From NCBI GenBank assembly GCA_944386095.1, contig CALWZU010000040.1, forward strand, positions 1 through 41,083: a stretch of 41,083 nucleotides of DNA, in the 5' to 3' direction. How positions within the stretch are numbered: position 1 is the stretch's first letter; each line of letters starts with the position of its first letter. The notes beneath the pieces were generated by a model. That model was given only the letters and a program-made list of their open reading frames with translations. It did not search any database and had not been told where the DNA came from. This document shows positions 23,186-34,762 of this stretch, one piece after another. Origin of the DNA: an uncultured Clostridia bacterium (GTDB taxonomy: Bacteria; Bacillota; Clostridia; Peptostreptococcales; Anaerovoracaceae). Made by a program: the position numbers and the translations under genes.

Positions 23186-23821
23186 TTATTTAACCTGTCC
23201 TTTAACTGCGTAGCTGACTCTCAGCAGGCCGCCCTTGGGTCCGGGCACTGCGCCCTTGATCAGCAGGATGTTTTTATCCGCCAGGACCTTGACAAGTTCC
23301 ACGTTCTGCACGGTGACGGTTTCTCTTCCGGTTCTTCCCGGGCCCTTGTTGCCCTTGAATACTCTGGAAGGATAGGTACCCGCCGCCAGGCCGCCGGCCA
23401 GTCTCTTGTGCTTGGAGCCGTGGGTCATGGGGCCTCTGTGATGGCCGTGTCTTTTGATGTTGCCCTGGGTTCCCTTTCCTTTGGAAACCCCTGTTACATC
23501 CAGCTTCACGCCTTCTTCAAATTCCGCCACTGTGAATTCCTGCCCCAGCTGATAAGCGGAAGGATCCTCCACCCTCACCTCGGCGAGATATTTTCTTGCG
23601 GGGGTCTGCCACTTGGCAAAATGTCCTTTCATGGGTTTTGTGAGCCTGTGCTCCTTGACTTCTCCGAAGCCCAGCTGCAAAGCGTTGTAGCCGTCGTTTT
23701 CAACGGTCTTGATCTGGGTTACCACCATGGGGCCCGCTTCCACAACGGTTACCGGGATAGCGGTTCCTTCTTCGGAAAAGATCTGCGTCATGCCAACTTT
23801 TTTTCCTAACAGTGTGTTCAT
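23186..23821 (-). CDS. rplC: 50S ribosomal protein L3
   Basis: Early-assembly protein with a long loop to the peptidyl transferase centre. The 211-residue product starts [20 protein letters not shown] and has VDVTGVSKG-type core [40 protein letters not shown] and [20 protein letters not shown]. It is separated from rpsJ by 190 nt, much more than any other pair in this part of the cluster. AGGAGG lies 7 nt before the ATG. Confidence 0.99.
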
Positions 23822-23837
23822 GTTTTACCTCCTGTTT

Positions 23838-23894
23838 TTCTTACAGCGGACCGCAGCCTTCTGCGCCTTAAGCCTTCGGCGCGGTCATCCTAAG
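23838..23894 (-). repeat. Tandem hairpin unit A in the rpsJ-rplC spacer
   Basis: A 57-nt unit immediately before the rplC ribosome binding site. On the plus strand it runs from TTCTTACAGCGGACCGC to GCGGTCATCCTAAG. In RNA, GACCGC (23881-23886) pairs with GCGGTC (23849-23854), and the outer CTTA/TAAG ends can also pair. It shares its first ~17 and last ~14 bases with unit B, while the loop differs. Confidence 0.7.
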
Positions 23895-23947
23895 TTCTTA
23901 CAGCGGATCGCTCCATGGGCCTTGCCCGCCGGGGCGATCATACTAAG
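23895..23947 (-). repeat. Tandem hairpin unit B in the rpsJ-rplC spacer
   Basis: A 53-nt unit directly adjoining unit A with the same ends (TTCTTACAGCGGATCGC to GCGATCATACTAAG). The inner stem is GATCGC with GCGATC; where unit A has a C-G pair, unit B has a T-A pair. The stem base pair has changed on both sides together, a compensatory change supporting a real RNA hairpin. The apical part differs (GGGC/GCCC mini-stem here). Confidence 0.7.
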
Positions 23948-23978
23948 CGGAGTTACCTGTATGTTAACTTCTTAGTAT
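23940..23978 (-). promoter_or_regulatory. Competing hairpin overlapping unit B
   Basis: ATACTAAG (23940-23947, the end of unit B) can pair perfectly with CTTAGTAT (23971-23978), with an inner AGTTA/TAACT stem (23951-23955 with 23965-23969). Because it shares bases with the outer stem of unit B, the two folds exclude each other partly, which is the kind of arrangement seen in attenuators. No U-tract follows. Confidence 0.4.
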
Positions 23979-24011
23979 TCTGTCAAACGTTTCGGTTTTG
24001 GCGGTTTGCGC

Positions 24012-24320
24012 CTACAGCTTGATTTCCACATCTACGCCGGCGGGCAGATCCAGCTTCATAAGAGCGTCTACCGTTTTGGGAGCCGGGCTGAGGATGTCGA
24101 TGAGCCTTTTGTGGGTTCTCTGTTCAAACTGTTCTCTGGAGTCCTTGTACTTGTGTACCGCTCTCAGAATGGTAACGACCTGCTTCTCTGTGGGAAGAGG
24201 AATGGGGCCGGATACTTCGGCGCCGGTTTTCTTGGCCGCTTCCACGATTTTCGCAGCGGACTGATCCAGCGCTTTGTGGTCGTAAGCCTTCAGTCTGATT
24301 CTGATCTTTTGATTTGCCAT
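24012..24320 (-). CDS. rpsJ: 30S ribosomal protein S10
   Basis: Small-subunit head protein and transcription antitermination factor (NusE). The 102-residue product shows [40 protein letters not shown], and [20 protein letters not shown] ending in DVEIKL. It is the first gene of the S10 cluster, preceded by a ~255-nt leader and a promoter; tuf and fus are not adjacent in this window. AAGGAGG lies 7 nt before the ATG. Confidence 0.99.
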
Positions 24321-24577
24321 GTTGTTTCCTCCTTGTTTTTTCGTACGTTTTTGCTATGCTCGTACCGAGGCGGTTCTCTCCGCAGGATTTTTGCGTCCTT
24401 TAAACCCTGGATTTCAGGGATTCTTCCCGGAACACCCATCCGGGTGTTTCCTTATTTTGGACACAGCTTAAAAAGCGCGGGAGAACACCTTCGCCCTCTT
24501 CCAGAGAGGACAATTCTCCGCAGAAATTATCTGATAGCGCAGTAACTTCCTGCTTCATCGCATTTCTAAGCAAGCTG
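24321..24577 (-). promoter_or_regulatory. Long structured 5' leader of the S10 operon
   Basis: About 255 nt between the predicted transcription start and rpsJ with no reading frame of note. Stems that can be read: CAGCTT at the very 5' end (24572-24577) with AAGCTG (24464-24469), enclosing GGAGAA/TTCTCC (24514-24519 with 24480-24485), which itself encloses CCTCT/AGAGG. A separate 9-10 bp hairpin lies at 24429-24451 (GGAAACACCC/GGGTGTTCC), and GTACG/CGTAC lies nearer the start codon. This fits a regulated r-protein leader; the ligand is unknown. Confidence 0.5.
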
Positions 24578-24581
24578 TTGT

Positions 24582-24610
24582 ATTATATCCTATAAGTCCG
24601 GGTATTGCAA
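24582..24610 (-). promoter_or_regulatory. S10-operon promoter
   Basis: On the minus strand: -35 TTGCAA (24605-24610), 17-bp spacer, perfect -10 TATAAT (24582-24587). Runs of A and T just upstream of the -35 (24611-24650) could be an UP element for RNA polymerase alpha, in keeping with a ribosomal promoter. Confidence 0.75.
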
Positions 24611-24948: not shown

Positions 24949-27900
24949 TTATGATTTGGCGATGTTTTCCATGAACTGCATAAACAGGGTAGCCGCCTGT
25001 GCCCTGGTGGCGTTGCCCTGAGGCTGGAGGGTATTGTCCCCCATGCCGCTGATGATTCCTGCGTTTACAGCCCAGCTGATCGCCTGCTCAGCATACGGAG
25101 AAACAGATCCCCAGTCGCTGAATTCCCTTGCAGCCATGCCGCCCTGGCTGGTATCATAGGCCTTTTCAGCCGCATAGCGATACAGTATCGCCGCAAGCTG
25201 CTCTCTTGTAATATTGTCCTCCGGCCCGAACAGGTCATCGCCATAGCCGCTGACGATTCCCTTTTCCGCAGCCCATTCCACAGCCTGGGTATACCAGGTT
25301 CCATCAGGCACATCGGCAAAGGACTGGACCGATTCCGGCTGAGGCTGTCCCTCAAGACGCCACAGCATGGCCACCATCATGGCTCTTGTCAGGGTGCCCT
25401 CCGGCTCAAAGCGGTCTTCGCTTACGCCGGACATGATGCCGTGCTCATAGGCATAGGCCACCGGATTATGGAACCAGTCTGCCCTGCCAACATCCGTATA
25501 GGGCAGATCATCGGAAGCCGCCCCTTCCCCGAAGTCCGCTTCAATGGTAACCGCCGTTTCGGGCATCTTAAAGGTATATTTGCCATCGGCGCTTCGGGTA
25601 ACGGAAACGGTCTTTCCCTTTTGATCGGTAACGGTAAGCTTGTCAAGATGATAGCCTTCATCGGGTTTTACCGTAATGGTAACGGTGTCGCCTTTAGCGG
25701 CTTTGCCCGGATCCACCGAAATGGTTCCGTGAGCGGACTGCTCCACGGTAACGGCCATTTCCGCCGCTCCGGCGCTGCCGCCGCCTCCGCCGCCGTGGGA
25801 GTCGGAATCATCCGGTTCTTCCGGAGGAGTCGTATCGGTGATCGAAGCTTCTACATCCACCGTATCAGAGCCTTCTTCTTTTCCTTCCACAAGGGCGGTT
25901 AAAAGCTCATCTGTCAGTGTTGTATAGGTCTTTCCGCCGAATTGCCACCCGTCAAAGCGCTGGTTTTCACCAAGGGTCAGGCTGGGAAGAGCCTCTCCCA
26001 CATTGCTGGCATCATACACTCTGGTCTGGGTCGCCCCTTCCTCTCCTGCCGTAAATGTAACCTCTACTTCTCTTGTGTCTGTTACCACTTCGAATTCGGA
26101 GAAACTGTCGGTCATGAATTTAAGAATATTACCGTCCGGTATTATATCCGGCCTGATGTATTCCGTTCTTCCGTCTGAACGTTCATGACGAATGAATGTT
26201 GTGTCGTTCAAAGTGATATCCTCAGGAACCTTAAGGGAAACCTCTACCGGCACGGCAATTTGATCATTTGTAATGGCAGCGCCTGTTACAAGAGGCGTTT
26301 CTTCGCCGGTCTCTGACGGGGAATACAGGCTGTAAACCGGCGTAATATTTACCTTGTAGGTTTCTCCCGGCTTATAGTCCACTACCTGCAGATTCTGTGA
26401 AACCTTCATCGTCACTTTCTCTGCCTGTTGATCTAATTCCTCTATTACAGAAGTTACGATCTGTTCCACATGCTTAGCGATTGCCGATAAAATATTGCCA
26501 AACTGATTATCCGCAGACTGCGCCGTTTGATTCAGCGTCTGTCTTTCTTCTTCCGTCAGTTCGATCTCATCCGATACGCCGCTTTCAACCTCTCCGGTTT
26601 CTAACGTAATATCGATAGGCCTTGCCACTACATTGCTGACGTCTACCTGGAAATTCACGTTGCCGCCAAGGCGAATGCCCGCATTTTCAGTATCCTCCTG
26701 AGCAGGAATCTTAACCGTCGTATAGGCTGAGCTTTCCACTCCGTTAATGATCCCTTTTACGCTCACTTCGATTTCTTTTTGGTCGTCTCCAACCGTTCCC
26801 GCAAAACCGCTGATCACGATTGCCGAACCGGATAAGTGCCATGATATGTCATCTGTTTGATCCAGTCCTTCAATCTCGATTTCTGGCAGAGAAATCACAA
26901 AGCGGCAGGAATTGCCTTTCACATCATCGGCCAGAATATAGTTGGGATTCAGGCTGGCCGCAGATACAACATAGGTTCCCACTTCTGTAGCCATAGGCAC
27001 GGTGAACGAAATACTGTCTCCCTGGATCAGTCCGCCGCCTTCCGCGACAGAGGCAACCGGCGCAAGGGGCTTTCCGGTATAGGTCAGCTCCGTATTGCTC
27101 CAGGTAATCGCGGAAATCGTCGCCGGTGTAATCTTGTATTCTACCGTATTGGTTTCCGGCAATGTATAATTGGCATTATCGATTACCGCTTCCGCCATGT
27201 GGGTTCCTGCATTTTTCTGCGTACCTCCGGCAACTGTGACAGTAACGGTATCTTCCTCCAGCTGACCCGTGATTTCGGCGCTGACATTGGAAGCCTGGCC
27301 GTCATAGGTTCTTGTTTCCGTTCCTGTCCAGGAAAGCGCCAGCTGTTTGGGCTTTACCGTCAGGCTGTACTGTCCGGATGTTTCTCCCTGAGCTGCCGTA
27401 ATCACGGTGCTTCCAGCATTTTGAATGGTTACCTGTCCATTGGCATCTACCGTCGCCACGTTCTCATCAGAGCTCGTGTACGTAAAAGCGCCTCCTGTGA
27501 CGCCGCCCAGCATGGCTTCATTCACGAACACAGGATCCCCATAGGTTTTTTCAATATTGCTTTCCCGGAAGGAAATACCCGTTCCGCTTTCCTGCCCCAT
27601 GGTCACGGTCAGAACATCGGAATTCTTGGTGGAATAATAGTCCTTTCCATCTACAGTGGCAAAGGGACGAACCATAAACTGATATTCTCCCTGCTCCAGA
27701 CCTGTCACCGTATATTCCGGCCGGTCCACAATACCCAGTCTGGTCCATTCTCCATCGATCTTTTGATAGAAGATATACTTTGTCGCTCCCGGTGCGGCTT
27801 CCCATGTAATATGCGCACTGTTTGATGTGGTTTCATAAGCAAAATCCTTTTCCACCACGTTCTGGGGCACGATTTCAAAGGTGCGGGTGGCTTCTCCATA

Positions 27901-30900
27901 ATAGGGGCCGTCAGAATATCCCACGATCCGAACCGTTGCCGTTCCCACCTCTTCATTGTTTTCCCAGTAAGGTGTAAAATCGCCATAGGTAGACTGGGGC
28001 TTCAGTTCATACTTCGTTCCATCAGGCAGCGTGTCTGTGACAGTGACCGCCGGCTGCCGCTTGTCTCCTGTATATCCGGCATACTGGAACGCCAGTTTAA
28101 TATCCAGGTCGGCAATATCCTTTCCCTGATGACCGCAGACAGAATAGGTGAAGGTATCGATGTCGAACACTTCCCTGGTACATACATGGTTCTCGTCATA
28201 TTGATGGCCCTGTCTTCTGGTTTCGGAAAGCTGATAGAATACATTGCATTCCTTGCACCAGCAGCCCAGGGATCCATCCTCCCAGCACTGAGCGGAATTG
28301 ACCGTTTCAGATTCATGAAGAATTCCATCCTCTCCCGCATGATGTACCGTATCTGCGCCCACCGCAAAGACGCCTGTCATAAGATTTCCGGCATTCAGAT
28401 ATACTCTGCCCTGCTCTCCGCCCTCCGGCGTATAGGCCGCATAGCCTGTATAAGCGGCGGCGGAGATGGCATATCCGCATTCCGAGCAGGTCAGCTGAGA
28501 GTCTCCGTCCCAGACATAGCTATGCTGATGGGAGGTGTCTCCTTCGGTTTTTGTGAAGCTGTCGATTTCCTTCACATCGCCGCCGTTGTAATCATAAGCC
28601 CGGATCATCAGCGTATTGTCTGTCGTCGCCAAGGTCATGTAAAGAGCCGAATAATCATTCGTGGCTATTTCAAAATTGAATTCTTCTGTTTCCGTAACGT
28701 CATAGCTCTTTTCTCCCAGGCTGCCGCAAATGAAATAGGTGATGCCTTCTTCATTTATCTGCCCGTCTATCATGGGCGCCGTTCGGGCATAAGAATGGTC
28801 GTGGCCGGATAAAACCACATCGATATCCGCCTGCTGTACGGCTTGAACCAGCTCTTGCTGCGTTCCGCTGCCCATTCCCGCTCCCACGTTGGTATAATAA
28901 GGAGGCTGATGTGTTACCAGAATACGCCACTGGGCTTCTGACGCCTCCGCATCACGGATCAAGCTCTGAAGGACCTCCTGAGAAAAGCTATTATACGCAA
29001 TGGTAGCAATAAAGACATTGCCTACCTTTATCGAATAGTAGTTGCCGTTTTCCTGATGATAGATCGTGCGATTCGGATCAATGCCCCCCTCCAGTTCGTG
29101 ATTGCCAAGGGCAAAAATCCGGTTTGTGTCCAAAGGCTGAAGCATGTTTAACGCGCTCACCCAGTTTGAATAGGAAGAACCATCGTCTACCAGGTCTCCG
29201 GTTTGGATCGCAAGATCATATTCGCTGATATCCCCCAGGCTCTCAAGGATGCCCGTCAACGCCGTATTATTTCTTTCCTGCAAATCTCCCAGGATCAGAG
29301 CGCTTACGCCGGCATCCGTTCTGCCGGTTGTCATGCTCCTGATCTCAGACCAGCTTTCACCGTTTCCTACCCGGTAATAATACGTTGTGTTCTCTTTCAG
29401 ATCCGTTATCGTCGCGCCGCATATATAGGCAGCGCTTCCGTCCGTAAATGTGACCAGATCGCAGGTCGCATCATAAACGGAACCTGCTTCTATCTCTTCC
29501 CGGCTTTCACTGATCTGCACCCGGGCAGCATCTTGTGCATACATGGGATTCGCAAACCAACTGACGTTTAAGCTGTCCGCCGCATCCGCCGCATTTCGCC
29601 AAATCTGCGTAGGAACGCCTTCTTCGTCTCCATCCGAATGATAAATGACGGTCGTATAAGCTACCGATACGTTTCCTTGGCTGTCTTTTGCAGTAACCGT
29701 GATCGATTCCTTGTTTTCCAGGATTTCCTCATTTACGGCTACTTTCCCCTGTTCATCTGAAGTCCCTATCAGGTTATCTCCCTCATAAAGGCCAACACCT
29801 TCAACCGGTAAACCGGTTCCTGAATCCTTAATAACGAAATAACAGGTATCCGGAAGTTCTGCGACCATCTGGCCTCCCGTTACCGTATAGGGCGCAACCA
29901 GCGGCATGGAAACGGAAGAATTAAAGGTTTCTCCGCCTGCATGGCCATTGATCCTGCAGCTAAAAGAGGTTTCCGCTCCCACAGAGGTCGGCACCTGTAA
30001 CGTAAGTGTCGCCATTGTTCCGCCAGCCACATTGCCTTCAACCCGAAAGCGCAAAATGCCGCTGATCGGATTATAGGAGGGTTCTTCTATAATAGTGCAG
30101 CCTCCCGCAACCTCTAATTGTGCATTTTCCGCAAACATTTCATCTACATTCAGCTCTACTTCCAGTGAATCCACTTCATTGTCTCTGGGTGTAAACTGCA
30201 AATGGATCGGCTGGCCTAACACAGCGCTGCTTTCCTGGGCCAAAACGGTCATAGGGGCTCCGGAAATGCTCTCATCCTGGATGGTTACCGTGTATTCTCT
30301 CGTAGCTTCATTTCCGTATCCATCCACTACCGAGACACGGATGGTGTGATTTCCGTTTGCCAGGCTTAGCCCTGCTTTTAATGTTCCGTCTCCGATATTC
30401 ACCAAAACATTATCGCCCTGAATCAGCTGCCCATCTACGTAAAGCGCCGCAGACTGCACACCGGTATTATTGGCGTTTGTCTGTACACTGTCTGCGAACG
30501 TCGCTTCAATATCAAGATTCCCGGAAGAAAGGGTCATATTCGTATGAAGGGCTTCCTGTTCTCCTTCACCTGCGGTTACCAGAACCGAACTGATTTCCGG
30601 AGGCTGAGTATCCTCGGGCGTACTTCCGTAAACATAGGTCAAATTATCAAAATATAAGGTTCCGCTCAGATCGCCCTTTGTCTGAGCAATACCGTCTGAA
30701 TTAAATGTTGCCAGATATTCAGGGATCGGGATCTGTCCGATGGTTACGGTTTCCCCTGTTGTGGCAAGGGTTACCGTTTCAGGAACCTCTGCTCCGATAT
30801 CAAGGGGTGAGGTGGAATAACCGCCGACAAACTCGCTGACCCGGGGATCATCACGATCCACCAAAATGATATTTCCATTCTCATCGGTCTGGCATTTTAC

Positions 30901-33216
30901 CCAGCCCTGGGGTGAGGCCCACAGCTTTCCGGCTCCTATAGATTGCTTGGGATTTGCCATCATAATCCGGACAGACATCCCTGCCGGAATCGTAACCGGC
31001 ATTTGCAGATGGCTGATATCCGCTTCAAAATAATGCCAGTTATCATCCGCGTGGCGGGCTACGCAGTTTGGCATATAAATACTATTCTCTGTAAAATCTA
31101 CCTGGGAAGTATTGCCAAGGCCGTCCCTATAGCGCAGACGCAGCCACAGATTCGGCGTATCCTTGGGAATATAGACCCAGATGCCGATTCTCGTGGGATT
31201 GCCTACGGCCTCCAATTTGATTTCCTCTGACAGCCCAAAGCAGACGCCGTCTGTTTTTCCCATATTGGTGTTGAAATCATAATCCACCCGCAGAGACTGG
31301 CTGCCAAAACGTACCGGATACCCCTCGTCTGCGCTTACAATTCTGGCGGTTCCTACCTGGGAGCCTTCCGGCGTGGTTCTGTCTGTGTAGGAAAGACAGG
31401 CGATATCATACCCTTCTGCGGCAATCTGCGCCCCGTTTTTGACTGTCTCAAATTTTTCGTAGCTTCCGTCTTCAAGGAACTGTCCACAGTAATCGTCAGC
31501 ACCGCCGGCTGTTTTCCCATGGAAAATCTTCGCAGATTCTTGTTCAAAATCCATCGCGGTCTGAGGCTCTTTACAAGCCTCCAGCACAACGCTGCCGGAT
31601 ACCTGAGAATCAAAGGCGCTTGTTACCGTGACAACCGCTTCGATATCCGTAGCCGTTTTTTCCAGGGCCGAAAGCGCATAATCCTCCGGCACCTTCTCAT
31701 TTGTGTTTTCCCCGCTATAGACAGGCTGACAGGTCAGTTTATTGTCCTTCACAGTCCCCACAGACAAAAGAGGCATTTGCTGCGGACTTTTTTCTTCTGT
31801 TTCCGTGATGATTTCATAATCACTTCCTGTTCCCGTCCATTGTCTGCGATTGTACTGGGTCGGCGCAATGGTCCATTCAAAGTCCCCGTCCTTATAATGC
31901 ACCTCTCTTTGCTTATACGTTACCTGCAAGCCCAGATCAGAGGTTTCTCCTTCTCCTATGCTGGCCTTTTCAGCGGAAAACTGAATTTTATCAGGCTTCG
32001 CAATGGTAATTTGGGTCGTTCCTACCACATTGCCGGTTTCATCATATAGCGAGACAGACACATCTCCTGTGTTTTCGTTTGAAGTAAATTCTCCTGTATT
32101 GCTGTTGATTTTACCGAACTTCGATTCCACCACCCAGCTTAACCCCTCCGGCAGAGGAGCAGGCGCACCGGACTGATCCGCTCCGGTCGCGGTAAACTGC
32201 ACCTTTGATCCTGGCGTATACACTTCATTATTGGGAGAAATCGCCGCATGATCAAAAATGCCATCCGATGAAGCCTTGGACAGAATCATCAGGGAAGAGC
32301 TGACCTGCCGTTCCTGCCCGTCGGAAGGATTGTTCCTGGTTATAACGCTGCCGTCCCCGTCTCTTCTGGAAACAAAGGTGGAGGAACCGCTTCCATCCAG
32401 AAGCAGGGCTGTTTCACAGCCTCTTTCCTTCATCATCTGTGCGACTTCATACTGGGTATAGCCGCAGGAAACAGGATACCGCTGCCCGTAGCAGACCATG
32501 GTAACCACGGTGCCGTCCGCTTTGATCCCCACCGCCGTATAGGTCACGTTCCGTCCGCCCTTTGCAACGTTTACCTCACCGTCTTTTACAAGCAGGCTGC
32601 CTCCTGCCACCGCATGCTGCAGATTGGCAAGATCCTCCTCTGCATAGCTGTCGGAAATCAGCGCTTGTCCATCCTTATCGATGGCAAAATAATACTTGCC
32701 GGCCGTATCGTTATAGGTCACCCCGTCAATGATCAAAATTCCGCTGGGCTGGCCGGTTGCCATGTTGTAATAATCCGCATTGATCGCCGCTACAACGGTT
32801 GCTCCCGCGTAATTTTCCAGATCTGTACGGTTGAAAAAGCTCTGAGCCGATTTTACCTGATCGGATACCGTCTGCATCCGCCAGGCGATCTCATTGTCGG
32901 AAAGGATATTTTCCAAACCTGCATAGCCGGCAATGATCTGCGCCTGACTCAGATCGATTTCACAAAAATAGTCGATATTTTGATTGAGTCCCGATTCCTC
33001 ATTGGTATAGGTCACATATTCCGTAACCCCCGGCGCCAGCTGATAGGCTGTTTCCGAAACAAACAGCCGGTCGCCGCTTTCACCTTCAAATAAATGAGTG
33101 CCGGAGCCGGTATTTTCAAACGCCGATTCCGCAAAGCCCGTTATCGGGGGGAATATCTGTAAGGCCATAATCAACGACAATGTGACTGCAAGCAGTCCCT
33201 TGACCCTCTGCCTCAT
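24949..33216 (-). CDS. Giant SLH-anchored surface protein: phosphodiester glycosidase (NAGPA-type) plus purple-acid-phosphatase-like domain
   Basis: About 2755 residues, secreted and wall-bound. Signal peptide 1-29 ends near TGFAES. Domains by approximate position: NAGPA-type phosphodiester glycosidase 60-310 with LLLDGSGSSTF; Ig-like 330-415; jelly-roll carbohydrate-binding-like 620-865 ending LYFDNLTYVYG; further Ig-like or unassigned folds 870-1195. A purple-acid-phosphatase N-terminal fold 1200-1295 precedes a metallophosphoesterase domain 1300-1555 with ILGDLQERN, QTGDLVDDG, ALGNHELEGG, VTHQPPYY and SGHDHSYAR. After that come fibronectin III 1780-1858, Big2-like 1880-1955, MBG-like repeats 1955-2110, an InlB-B-like repeat 2485-2560 behind a GGGGGGS linker, and three SLH domains 2572-2752 (motifs LTRAMM, ITREQL, ATRAQA). 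The ATG at 33214-33216 is chosen because AGGAGG precedes it at normal distance; a frame 19 codons longer runs through the upstream terminator. The substrate is unknown; sugar-1-phosphate diesters are the family expectation. Confidence 0.88.
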   Translation of the reverse strand: MRQRVKGLLAVTLSLIMALQIFPPITGFAESAFENTGSGTHLFEGESGDRLFVSETAYQLAPGVTEYVTYTNEESGLNQNIDYFCEIDLSQAQIIAGYAGLENILSDNEIAWRMQTVSDQVKSAQSFFNRTDLENYAGATVVAAINADYYNMATGQPSGILIIDGVTYNDTAGKYYFAIDKDGQALISDSYAEEDLANLQHAVAGGSLLVKDGEVNVAKGGRNVTYTAVGIKADGTVVTMVCYGQRYPVSCGYTQYEVAQMMKERGCETALLLDGSGSSTFVSRRDGDGSVITRNNPSDGQERQVSSSLMILSKASSDGIFDHAAISPNNEVYTPGSKVQFTATGADQSGAPAPLPEGLSWVVESKFGKINSNTGEFTSNENTGDVSVSLYDETGNVVGTTQITIAKPDKIQFSAEKASIGEGETSDLGLQVTYKQREVHYKDGDFEWTIAPTQYNRRQWTGTGSDYEIITETEEKSPQQMPLLSVGTVKDNKLTCQPVYSGENTNEKVPEDYALSALEKTATDIEAVVTVTSAFDSQVSGSVVLEACKEPQTAMDFEQESAKIFHGKTAGGADDYCGQFLEDGSYEKFETVKNGAQIAAEGYDIACLSYTDRTTPEGSQVGTARIVSADEGYPVRFGSQSLRVDYDFNTNMGKTDGVCFGLSEEIKLEAVGNPTRIGIWVYIPKDTPNLWLRLRYRDGLGNTSQVDFTENSIYMPNCVARHADDNWHYFEADISHLQMPVTIPAGMSVRIMMANPKQSIGAGKLWASPQGWVKCQTDENGNIILVDRDDPRVSEFVGGYSTSPLDIGAEVPETVTLATTGETVTIGQIPIPEYLATFNSDGIAQTKGDLSGTLYFDNLTYVYGSTPEDTQPPEISSVLVTAGEGEQEALHTNMTLSSGNLDIEATFADSVQTNANNTGVQSAALYVDGQLIQGDNVLVNIGDGTLKAGLSLANGNHTIRVSVVDGYGNEATREYTVTIQDESISGAPMTVLAQESSAVLGQPIHLQFTPRDNEVDSLEVELNVDEMFAENAQLEVAGGCTIIEEPSYNPISGILRFRVEGNVAGGTMATLTLQVPTSVGAETSFSCRINGHAGGETFNSSVSMPLVAPYTVTGGQMVAELPDTCYFVIKDSGTGLPVEGVGLYEGDNLIGTSDEQGKVAVNEEILENKESITVTAKDSQGNVSVAYTTVIYHSDGDEEGVPTQIWRNAADAADSLNVSWFANPMYAQDAARVQISESREEIEAGSVYDATCDLVTFTDGSAAYICGATITDLKENTTYYYRVGNGESWSEIRSMTTGRTDAGVSALILGDLQERNNTALTGILESLGDISEYDLAIQTGDLVDDGSSYSNWVSALNMLQPLDTNRIFALGNHELEGGIDPNRTIYHQENGNYYSIKVGNVFIATIAYNSFSQEVLQSLIRDAEASEAQWRILVTHQPPYYTNVGAGMGSGTQQELVQAVQQADIDVVLSGHDHSYARTAPMIDGQINEEGITYFICGSLGEKSYDVTETEEFNFEIATNDYSALYMTLATTDNTLMIRAYDYNGGDVKEIDSFTKTEGDTSHQHSYVWDGDSQLTCSECGYAISAAAYTGYAAYTPEGGEQGRVYLNAGNLMTGVFAVGADTVHHAGEDGILHESETVNSAQCWEDGSLGCWCKECNVFYQLSETRRQGHQYDENHVCTREVFDIDTFTYSVCGHQGKDIADLDIKLAFQYAGYTGDKRQPAVTVTDTLPDGTKYELKPQSTYGDFTPYWENNEEVGTATVRIVGYSDGPYYGEATRTFEIVPQNVVEKDFAYETTSNSAHITWEAAPGATKYIFYQKIDGEWTRLGIVDRPEYTVTGLEQGEYQFMVRPFATVDGKDYYSTKNSDVLTVTMGQESGTGISFRESNIEKTYGDPVFVNEAMLGGVTGGAFTYTSSDENVATVDANGQVTIQNAGSTVITAAQGETSGQYSLTVKPKQLALSWTGTETRTYDGQASNVSAEITGQLEEDTVTVTVAGGTQKNAGTHMAEAVIDNANYTLPETNTVEYKITPATISAITWSNTELTYTGKPLAPVASVAEGGGLIQGDSISFTVPMATEVGTYVVSAASLNPNYILADDVKGNSCRFVISLPEIEIEGLDQTDDISWHLSGSAIVISGFAGTVGDDQKEIEVSVKGIINGVESSAYTTVKIPAQEDTENAGIRLGGNVNFQVDVSNVVARPIDITLETGEVESGVSDEIELTEEERQTLNQTAQSADNQFGNILSAIAKHVEQIVTSVIEELDQQAEKVTMKVSQNLQVVDYKPGETYKVNITPVYSLYSPSETGEETPLVTGAAITNDQIAVPVEVSLKVPEDITLNDTTFIRHERSDGRTEYIRPDIIPDGNILKFMTDSFSEFEVVTDTREVEVTFTAGEEGATQTRVYDASNVGEALPSLTLGENQRFDGWQFGGKTYTTLTDELLTALVEGKEEGSDTVDVEASITDTTPPEEPDDSDSHGGGGGGSAGAAEMAVTVEQSAHGTISVDPGKAAKGDTVTITVKPDEGYHLDKLTVTDQKGKTVSVTRSADGKYTFKMPETAVTIEADFGEGAASDDLPYTDVGRADWFHNPVAYAYEHGIMSGVSEDRFEPEGTLTRAMMVAMLWRLEGQPQPESVQSFADVPDGTWYTQAVEWAAEKGIVSGYGDDLFGPEDNITREQLAAILYRYAAEKAYDTSQGGMAAREFSDWGSVSPYAEQAISWAVNAGIISGMGDNTLQPQGNATRAQAATLFMQFMENIAKS

Positions 33217-33230
33217 AAATTCACCTCCTG

Positions 33231-33270
33231 AAAAAAAAAAGAGAAGGGCGACGGCTTTACGCCGCCGCCC
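33231..33270 (-). terminator. Terminator between the 485-residue SLH gene and the giant gene, abutting the giant gene's ribosome binding site
   Basis: On the minus strand GGGCGGCGGC (33261-33270) pairs with GCCGTCGCCC (33246-33255) across a 5-nt loop, with one G-U pair, followed by TTCTC and ten T residues. Directly after the last T come CAGGAGGTGA and the giant gene's ATG, leaving no room for a separate promoter after the hairpin. Expression of the giant gene is therefore likely by partial read-through. Confidence 0.88.
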
Positions 33271-33304
33271 CAAATGAGTGCTGTGACTTTTCAGAATGGA
33301 AACG

Positions 33305-34762
33305 TTAAATCACCGGATCCTGCGTAACCGCATCTCCGATTTGCTGACCTAAATCGCTTCCCGAAATAGGATTGCTTTCCTCAGGATCATCATTGATTTC
33401 AAACCATTCTTCCATGTCATCGTTATAAACGTATTCTTTGTCATCAACGGTAACTGTTGTGCCGCCGCTAATAGCCTGTTCGATCTTATCTCCCAGATCT
33501 TCCGGTGAAATGAATTCCCCTTCCGGGCCTTCATATTCTTGTTTATCCTCACGCCATTCATACTTGTCATTTCCGATTTGAACAACGCCGGGACGAGTCA
33601 CTTCAGGCGGATTCCCACCGCCATGGCTTCCGCCACCGCCGCCGCTGCTGGGACGGGTCGCCGGAGCGTTGATGGTTCCTCCATTGGTGGTTTCCTGATT
33701 TTTGATGGCGCTGGTGTTGCCGGTTGCGGTAATGTCCGCGCCGTCTGTGGACAGGGTGTCGATGGTTGCGCCGTTCGCTACGTTTACGCTTGTTCCGTCA
33801 GCGGTCTCTTCCACTGCGATGGTGCCGATTTCAGCTGTAGACTGCGCCTGGATGCTGGTATCAGGCGCTTTAACGCTGATGTTTTCTACTGTGCCGGCAA
33901 CGGTCAGAGCAGCGTCTTCAGCCCCTTCCTCAACGATTACGTTTTCAACCGCAGACCCTTCGCCCACGGTGACTTCTCCATTGGCTGCGGAAACGATAAC
34001 ATTGTCCGCTGTGGTATCATTCAGGGTAACGCTGCCGTTTGCAGCCCCCTGAGCAACGATGATATCTCCGGCTTTTACGCCTTCGATAACAACATCTTCG
34101 GCTGTAGCGATCACGATGGTGCCGGTAGCGTCTACATCTGCCGCTGCGTAAGTGCCGCCTGCATTGATGTACGTCGTAACGGCGTTGTTGAGCATAACAA
34201 CGACTGCGCCTCTGGATACGGCAGCCAGAGGATCAACGGTTCCGTCAGGATTGCCGTTTACAATGCCTCTTGCGCTCATGGCGTTCAGATAAGGCAGCGC
34301 CCAGCTGGAAACGTCCGCGCTGTCAGCAAAGGCGGTTCCGCCTGTTGTCATGGGCTCGATCTTCAGAGCTCTTGCCAGCATAACGATGGACTGCTCTCTG
34401 GTAATAGGATCGTCGCCGCCTACGGTTCCGTCTCCATAGCCGCTCATAACATCAGCCGCTACGCATTTGAGAATGGCGCTTTGGTACCACTGGCCGTTCA
34501 GATCGGTGAACTGGTTGGACGCGGTGGTCTCATAACCAAAGGCTTCCGCCAGAACCTGGGCCAGCTCGCCTCTTGTCATGGAATTATCCAGATTCGCATT
34601 TCCATTTTCATCACCGGACAATACGCCGTTTTCAGCCCACTCGTCAAAGGCGCCCTGCGCCCAGTGTTCTGAAGCATCATTGGCAGCAAATACCATACCC
34701 GGCATCATGGATACCACCATGGCCAGAGACAGTAACACTGCCAATACCTTTTTCTGTTTCAT
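33305..34762 (-). CDS. S-layer-like protein with three N-terminal SLH domains
   Basis: A 485-residue secreted wall protein of no known enzymatic role. Signal peptide 1-26 (ends GMVFAAND). Three SLH domains at about 27-205 have the SCWP-binding motifs MTRGEL, ITREQS and VSRGAV. A Thr/Val/Ala-rich region at about 210-360 of short beta-strand-like repeats (VIEGVKAGDIIV, VENVIVEEGAEDAALTV, VENISVKAPDTSI) suggests a right-handed beta-helix. After a Gly/Ser linker SSGGGGGSHGGG, two ~45-residue tandem repeats follow (first with IGNDKYEWREDKQEYE and ISPEDLGDKIEQAI; second with VDDKEYVYNDDMEEWFE and ISGSDLGQQIGDAV). A GGAGGGGAAAT site precedes the ATG. It has a strong promoter and is probably abundant. 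Confidence 0.9.
   Translation of the reverse strand: MKQKKVLAVLLSLAMVVSMMPGMVFAANDASEHWAQGAFDEWAENGVLSGDENGNANLDNSMTRGELAQVLAEAFGYETTASNQFTDLNGQWYQSAILKCVAADVMSGYGDGTVGGDDPITREQSIVMLARALKIEPMTTGGTAFADSADVSSWALPYLNAMSARGIVNGNPDGTVDPLAAVSRGAVVVMLNNAVTTYINAGGTYAAADVDATGTIVIATAEDVVIEGVKAGDIIVAQGAANGSVTLNDTTADNVIVSAANGEVTVGEGSAVENVIVEEGAEDAALTVAGTVENISVKAPDTSIQAQSTAEIGTIAVEETADGTSVNVANGATIDTLSTDGADITATGNTSAIKNQETTNGGTINAPATRPSSGGGGGSHGGGNPPEVTRPGVVQIGNDKYEWREDKQEYEGPEGEFISPEDLGDKIEQAISGGTTVTVDDKEYVYNDDMEEWFEINDDPEESNPISGSDLGQQIGDAVTQDPVI

Follow-up and report, generated by a model that had tools for sequence, protein, structure and literature searches.

A structured RNA element before rplC in Clostridia, most likely an internal ribosomal-protein leader of the S10 operon

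In the window, the whole 41,083-nucleotide stretch of DNA analysed here from an uncultured Clostridia bacterium of the family Anaerovoracaceae, the spacer between the genes for ribosomal proteins S10 and L3 contains two tandem copies of one small RNA element, which recurs with covarying helices directly before rplC in related genomes. The element appears to act as a ribosomal-protein leader inside the operon and, most likely with L3 as its ligand, to repress translation of rplC, a reading to which we assign a probability of roughly 60%. The original prediction had offered three options, an mRNA processing site, a small dispersed repeat, and an autoregulatory RNA for a ribosomal protein with L3 or L4 as candidates; the last of these is supported by the placement of the element, its single locus and its conserved internal loop. 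The features of the region are as follows.

23186..23821, minus strand: rplC (ribosomal protein L3, Pfam PF00297), the gene proposed to be under control
23822-24011, in the minus-strand operon: the rpsJ-rplC spacer (190 nt)
23828..23833, minus strand: Shine-Dalgarno AGGAGG of rplC, from the sequence
23840..23894, minus strand: element copy 2, unit A of the original prediction (covariance model R1 39.7 bits, R2 41.9 bits)
23897..23947, minus strand: element copy 1, unit B of the original prediction (R1 48.2 bits, R2 48.2 bits)
23971..23978, minus strand: anti-P1 strand AUACUAAG, complementary to CUUAGUAU (23940-23947)
24012..24320, minus strand: rpsJ (ribosomal protein S10, Pfam PF00338), the upstream neighbour
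24491..24566, minus strand: S10-Clostridia leader (RF03136; 32.8 bits, E 7.4e-5)
24582..24610, minus strand: likely S10 operon promoter, TTGCAA-17-TATAAT, by consensus match alone

Directly upstream of the operon lies a gene for a 2774-aa surface protein with S-layer homology (SLH), phosphodiester glycosidase and metallophosphatase domains (24949-33273, minus strand), itself preceded by a second SLH protein (33305-34762).

The 190-nt spacer had been predicted correctly, as had the stems GATCGC/GCGATC of unit B (23939-23934 with 23911-23906) and GACCGC/GCGGTC of unit A (23886-23881 with 23854-23849), together with the compensatory T-A to C-G exchange between them. The stems hold, but not the strand on which they had been read: rpsJ, rplC and the RNA are all on the minus strand, so that the RNA is the reverse complement, in which unit B precedes unit A. 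The two units with near-identical ends are indeed two tandem copies of one element, although they had been drawn too short, missing an outer helix, P1, in which CUUAG at the 5' end of the unit pairs with UAAG at its 3' end. In general the element is built from P1 (CUUA/UAAG), a covarying helix P2 with a free loop and, between the two helices, an asymmetric internal loop that is conserved (GNAU/CGCUG). Copy 1 combines P1 CUUA/UAAG, the loop GUAU/CGCUG, P2 GAUCGC/GCGAUC and an apical loop, laid out as CUUAGUAU-GAUCGC...GCGAUC-CGCUG-UAAG-AA (23897-23947); copy 2 has the same P1, the loop GGAU/CGCUG, P2 GACCGC/GCGGUC and an apical loop, laid out as CUUAGGAU-GACCGC...GCGGUC-CGCUG-UAAG-AA (23840-23894). 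In sense order the spacer thus reads AUACUAAG strand, copy 1, copy 2, AGGAGG and the ATG start codon of rplC, 3' of AGGAGG. The last UAAG of copy 2 ends 6 nt before AGGAGG, right before the ribosome binding site as had been foreseen. The spacer is expanded here, but not exceptionally so, since expansion is usual in the clade (43-333 nt); the tandem arrangement is uncommon among relatives and was also found in five close ones (L037-L041). The folding energy by itself is unremarkable (z = -1.75); support for the element comes from comparative evidence.

Nearly all of 80 rplC loci from related genomes, our starting sample, show a comparable element at the same place, and covariation in P2 was seen already in this first set. 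Model R1 recovers 71 of the 80 as well as both window copies, the nine that it misses having kept the conserved ends while carrying divergent pairs or a P2 loop with long insertions. Four of the six P2 pairs covary, and compensatory changes also occur in P1, at its CG/UA and UA/CG positions; other families of the Clostridia have UUUA/UAAA or UCUA/UAGA in place of CUUA/UAAG. Across a broader set of 66 sequences we counted 97 double-change cells, compared with 34.6 after shuffling and at most 24 with slid partners. When 127 loci were picked by their conserved end letters, independently of any model, at least five of the six P2 pairs were kept in every one of them, with the outer two of the six being fixed by the picking pattern itself. 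The spacing between the conserved ends in these loci runs from 20 to 242 nt, and P2 loops may have just a few nucleotides or more than 200. The internal-loop letters are nearly invariant, in lineage-specific versions (CGCUG or CAAUG/CAAUA). Lack of stem conservation in relatives had been set as a refutation of the original prediction, and the outcome was strongly positive for conservation. Searching the family by DNA sequence alone gave too weak a signal, but drew attention to the conserved CCGCTGTAAGAA. In four loci (L063, L097, L108 and L221) the P2 loop contains inserted tandem repeats, each about 90 nt long (GGGCTTCCGCAGTAGGATTCAGCC...). A larger type of element, in which P2 is topped by a second, likewise conserved internal loop (AYGAGAGG / AAACCRGAG) with covarying Y and R, occupies the rpsJ-rplC spacer of L058, L065, L077, L086, L093, L106 and others; by letters alone, this second loop resembles the sarcin-ricin loop of 23S rRNA.

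Matches to R1 were observed in 92 of 149 genomes of the same family, 220 of 297 of the same order and 36 of 341 drawn from the class, and those of model R2, in a phylum-wide draw of 399 genomes, are confined to this class. R1 undercounts: 12 family genomes without a match were examined, 11 have an identifiable rplC, and all 11 carry an expanded or diverged version of the element. The gene order is S10-element-L3-L4 in every locus read, the element precedes AGGAGG, and the start codon is usually 15-24 nt off. Every credible match that was checked sits directly before rplC, with a single locus per genome; five genomes (G117, G065, G468, G461 and G861) have secondary weak matches, and those inspected fall inside coding sequence. 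Two features of ribosomal-protein leaders in general are present, namely a position directly before ribosomal-protein genes with one site per operon, and a secondary structure that is conserved and supported by covarying pairs.

A second subtype, GGUCAWG..CCAAUAACC or in fuller form GGUCAWGUUSG...CSAACCAAUAACC, is found in many other families of the Clostridia at the identical spot, about 20-60 nt before rplC in loci L266-L296, and its P2 covaries as well. Its model, R3, matches 120 of 291 class genomes, and in the order of the first type a single genome, weakly; the strong matches that were fetched all lie at rplC, and inspection of weak ones placed them within coding sequence. Bin G572, where R3 has two strong matches, contains two S10 operons, on contigs 6 and 127 (L301 and L300), probably reflecting mixed species in the bin. 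In some clostridial genomes the rpsJ-rplC spacer is very short and has neither type. Both subtypes can be expressed with one core, A[U/A]G-P2-CC(GC or AA)U, and this core, the intermediate forms L223, L227, L237 and L247, and the shared position suggest that the two are of common descent.

Textbooks present S10 operon autoregulation as the work of L4 at the operon start. The first step of 50S assembly requires L3, among other proteins; we know of no earlier bacterial L3 leader. No Rfam 15 family matched the spacer at gathering thresholds or at permissive, weak E-value thresholds, and neither subtype has a family in Rfam 15. RF03136 is also a cis-regulatory leader of the same operon and lineage, but it precedes rpsJ rather than rplC, differs in sequence and structure, and co-occurs with the rplC element in the operon. 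Its model has no match in the spacer and matches solely before rpsJ, at the operon start behind the plausible promoter, with a score just below gathering here (32.8 against 35.1 bits) and above gathering in relatives. Feedback by an operon's own protein (review PMC10931766) would be shared with the L4-binding S10 leader of Gammaproteobacteria, a long leader at the operon start that acts through transcription attenuation, whereas the element here is short, terminator-free and placed before the second gene. The L20 leaders of rpmI-rplT are likewise small sites before a ribosomal-protein gene with more than one recognition region (PMC7247131), but they have another ligand and clear 23S mimicry, which was not found for the rplC element. 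The main text of Narunsky et al. 2024 (PMC11109978), a survey of 50 genomes and 30 leader candidates, describes a candidate S10 operon leader of Peptostreptococcaceae, the rpsJ motif RLC-47-1, before rpsJ and not between rpsJ and rplC, and has no rplC motif; a prior listing of our element among the 30 candidates is possible. Eckert and Weinberg 2020 (PMC7247131) describe 20 leaders, none of them a bacterial one for rplC; their L4-Archaeoglobi candidate also lies in front of rplC but is archaeal, and our element matched no Rfam family. We regard the rplC element as a new family within an established type of regulator.

The ligand could instead be L4 or another operon protein, making the element a second L4 checkpoint within the operon. 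A review of the extraribosomal functions of ribosomal proteins (PMC10931766) names uL4 as the protein that controls the E. coli S10 operon, and the passages found there on uL3 deal with other matters, e.g. 50S assembly; moreover, rplD is always the second gene after the element, so that synteny does not separate the two proteins. Still, the gene directly behind the element is rplC, and L4 would already have its operon site if it is the ligand of the S10-Clostridia leader that precedes rpsJ. We take L3 as the first candidate, given that rplC follows directly and that L4 usually acts at the operon start, and consider L4 or another operon protein unlikely, if the best of the alternatives.

Somewhat less probable is a processing or stability element, where RNase III, RNase Y or a similar enzyme would separate rpsJ from rplC mRNA and thereby set their ratio. 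Tandem stems, and hairpins that hold a constant position between two genes of a long operon, are what one might expect of such an element, yet a conserved internal loop with lineage-specific versions, combined with variable P2 loops, is more in keeping with a recognition site than with a duplex substrate. This, the location directly before the Shine-Dalgarno sequence and the one locus per genome favour a ribosomal-protein leader.

The third stem of the original prediction, ATACTAAG/CTTAGTAT, exists (23978-23971 with 23947-23940) and overlaps copy 1; in line with the alternative folds suggested on its basis, the anti-P1 strand competes for the 5' side of P1 in this copy. The nearest-neighbour model places the ligand-free anti-P1 fold of the window below the P1 fold by about 7 kcal/mol. 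Across loci, upstream anti-P1 complementarity scores 10.5, versus 6.9 +/- 0.26 for shuffled sequences and 8.9 +/- 0.2 for swapped partners, and 65 of 103 loci have a competing strand of at least 6 bp, versus 19.9 +/- 4.1 and 45.1 +/- 3.4, respectively. The strand has two main forms (UACUAAG/CUUAGUA and UAAGGG/CCCUUA), and in L182 it changes in step with P1 (AUACUAAAU/AUUUAGUAU). So widespread a competing strand might point to a protein-free device, in which P1/anti-P1 exchange, independently of any ligand, would couple translation or respond to temperature. However, many loci without the strand retain the element, and its near-invariant internal-loop letters exceed the needs of a simple switch, leaving this explanation quite improbable. 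Burial of the Shine-Dalgarno sequence was rejected as a mechanism, since constrained folding gives similar accessibility in both states; repression, if any, would thus be exerted sterically by a protein bound nearby.

A dispersed repeat, an intrinsic terminator or chance hairpins can practically be dismissed: despite the tandem near-identical ends, the cross-species conservation and covariation are strong, the genome has two copies only, both in this spacer, and not the multiple copies of a REP- or MITE-like palindromic repeat, so that the repeat fails by the criterion set in the original prediction, the credible matches checked elsewhere are all at rplC, and the minus strand within 23822-24011 has no GC stem followed by a U run that could act as terminator or attenuator.

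The two strands of the element resemble AUCCGCUGU and CUUAGUACGA, about 45 nt apart in 23S rRNA (that of this genome being absent from the assembly). Nevertheless, in two other genomes the AUCCGCUGU stretch is AUCCGUCGC or AUCCAGCGU and the leaders still have UCCGCUGUA, and neither element model scores above chance against 23S rRNA. Since the letters are not kept when 23S changes and no model scores above chance, we do not claim literal mimicry. Both results weigh against the leader reading; resemblance to the rRNA site of the ligand is frequent in ribosomal-protein leaders but is not a requirement.

Under the preferred reading, an L3-bound leader, an operon-encoded ribosomal protein in excess of free 23S rRNA, most likely L3, would bind the P1/internal-loop/P2 element, stabilise P1 against the competing upstream strand and block 30S loading at the adjacent Shine-Dalgarno sequence. 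Output of L3 would then fall and, by translational coupling, also that of L4, L23, L2 and the genes that follow, with the tandem copies here perhaps sharpening or strengthening the response. The presence of an S10 leader further upstream in the operon speaks against this reading. The more comprehensive version, a class-wide clostridial L3 autoregulatory RNA with at least two structural subtypes and an A[U/A]G / CC(GC|AA)U core, providing a second, internal feedback in the S10 operon, with a tandem two-site arrangement here and an antisense strand gating P1, is more tentative and in our estimate falls somewhat short of an even chance. If true, L3 would have its own feedback through a second element before rplC across Clostridia. 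The element would offer a short, testable RNA for L3 recognition, and an example of a regulatory element that differs in form between lineages while its place among the genes stays fixed.
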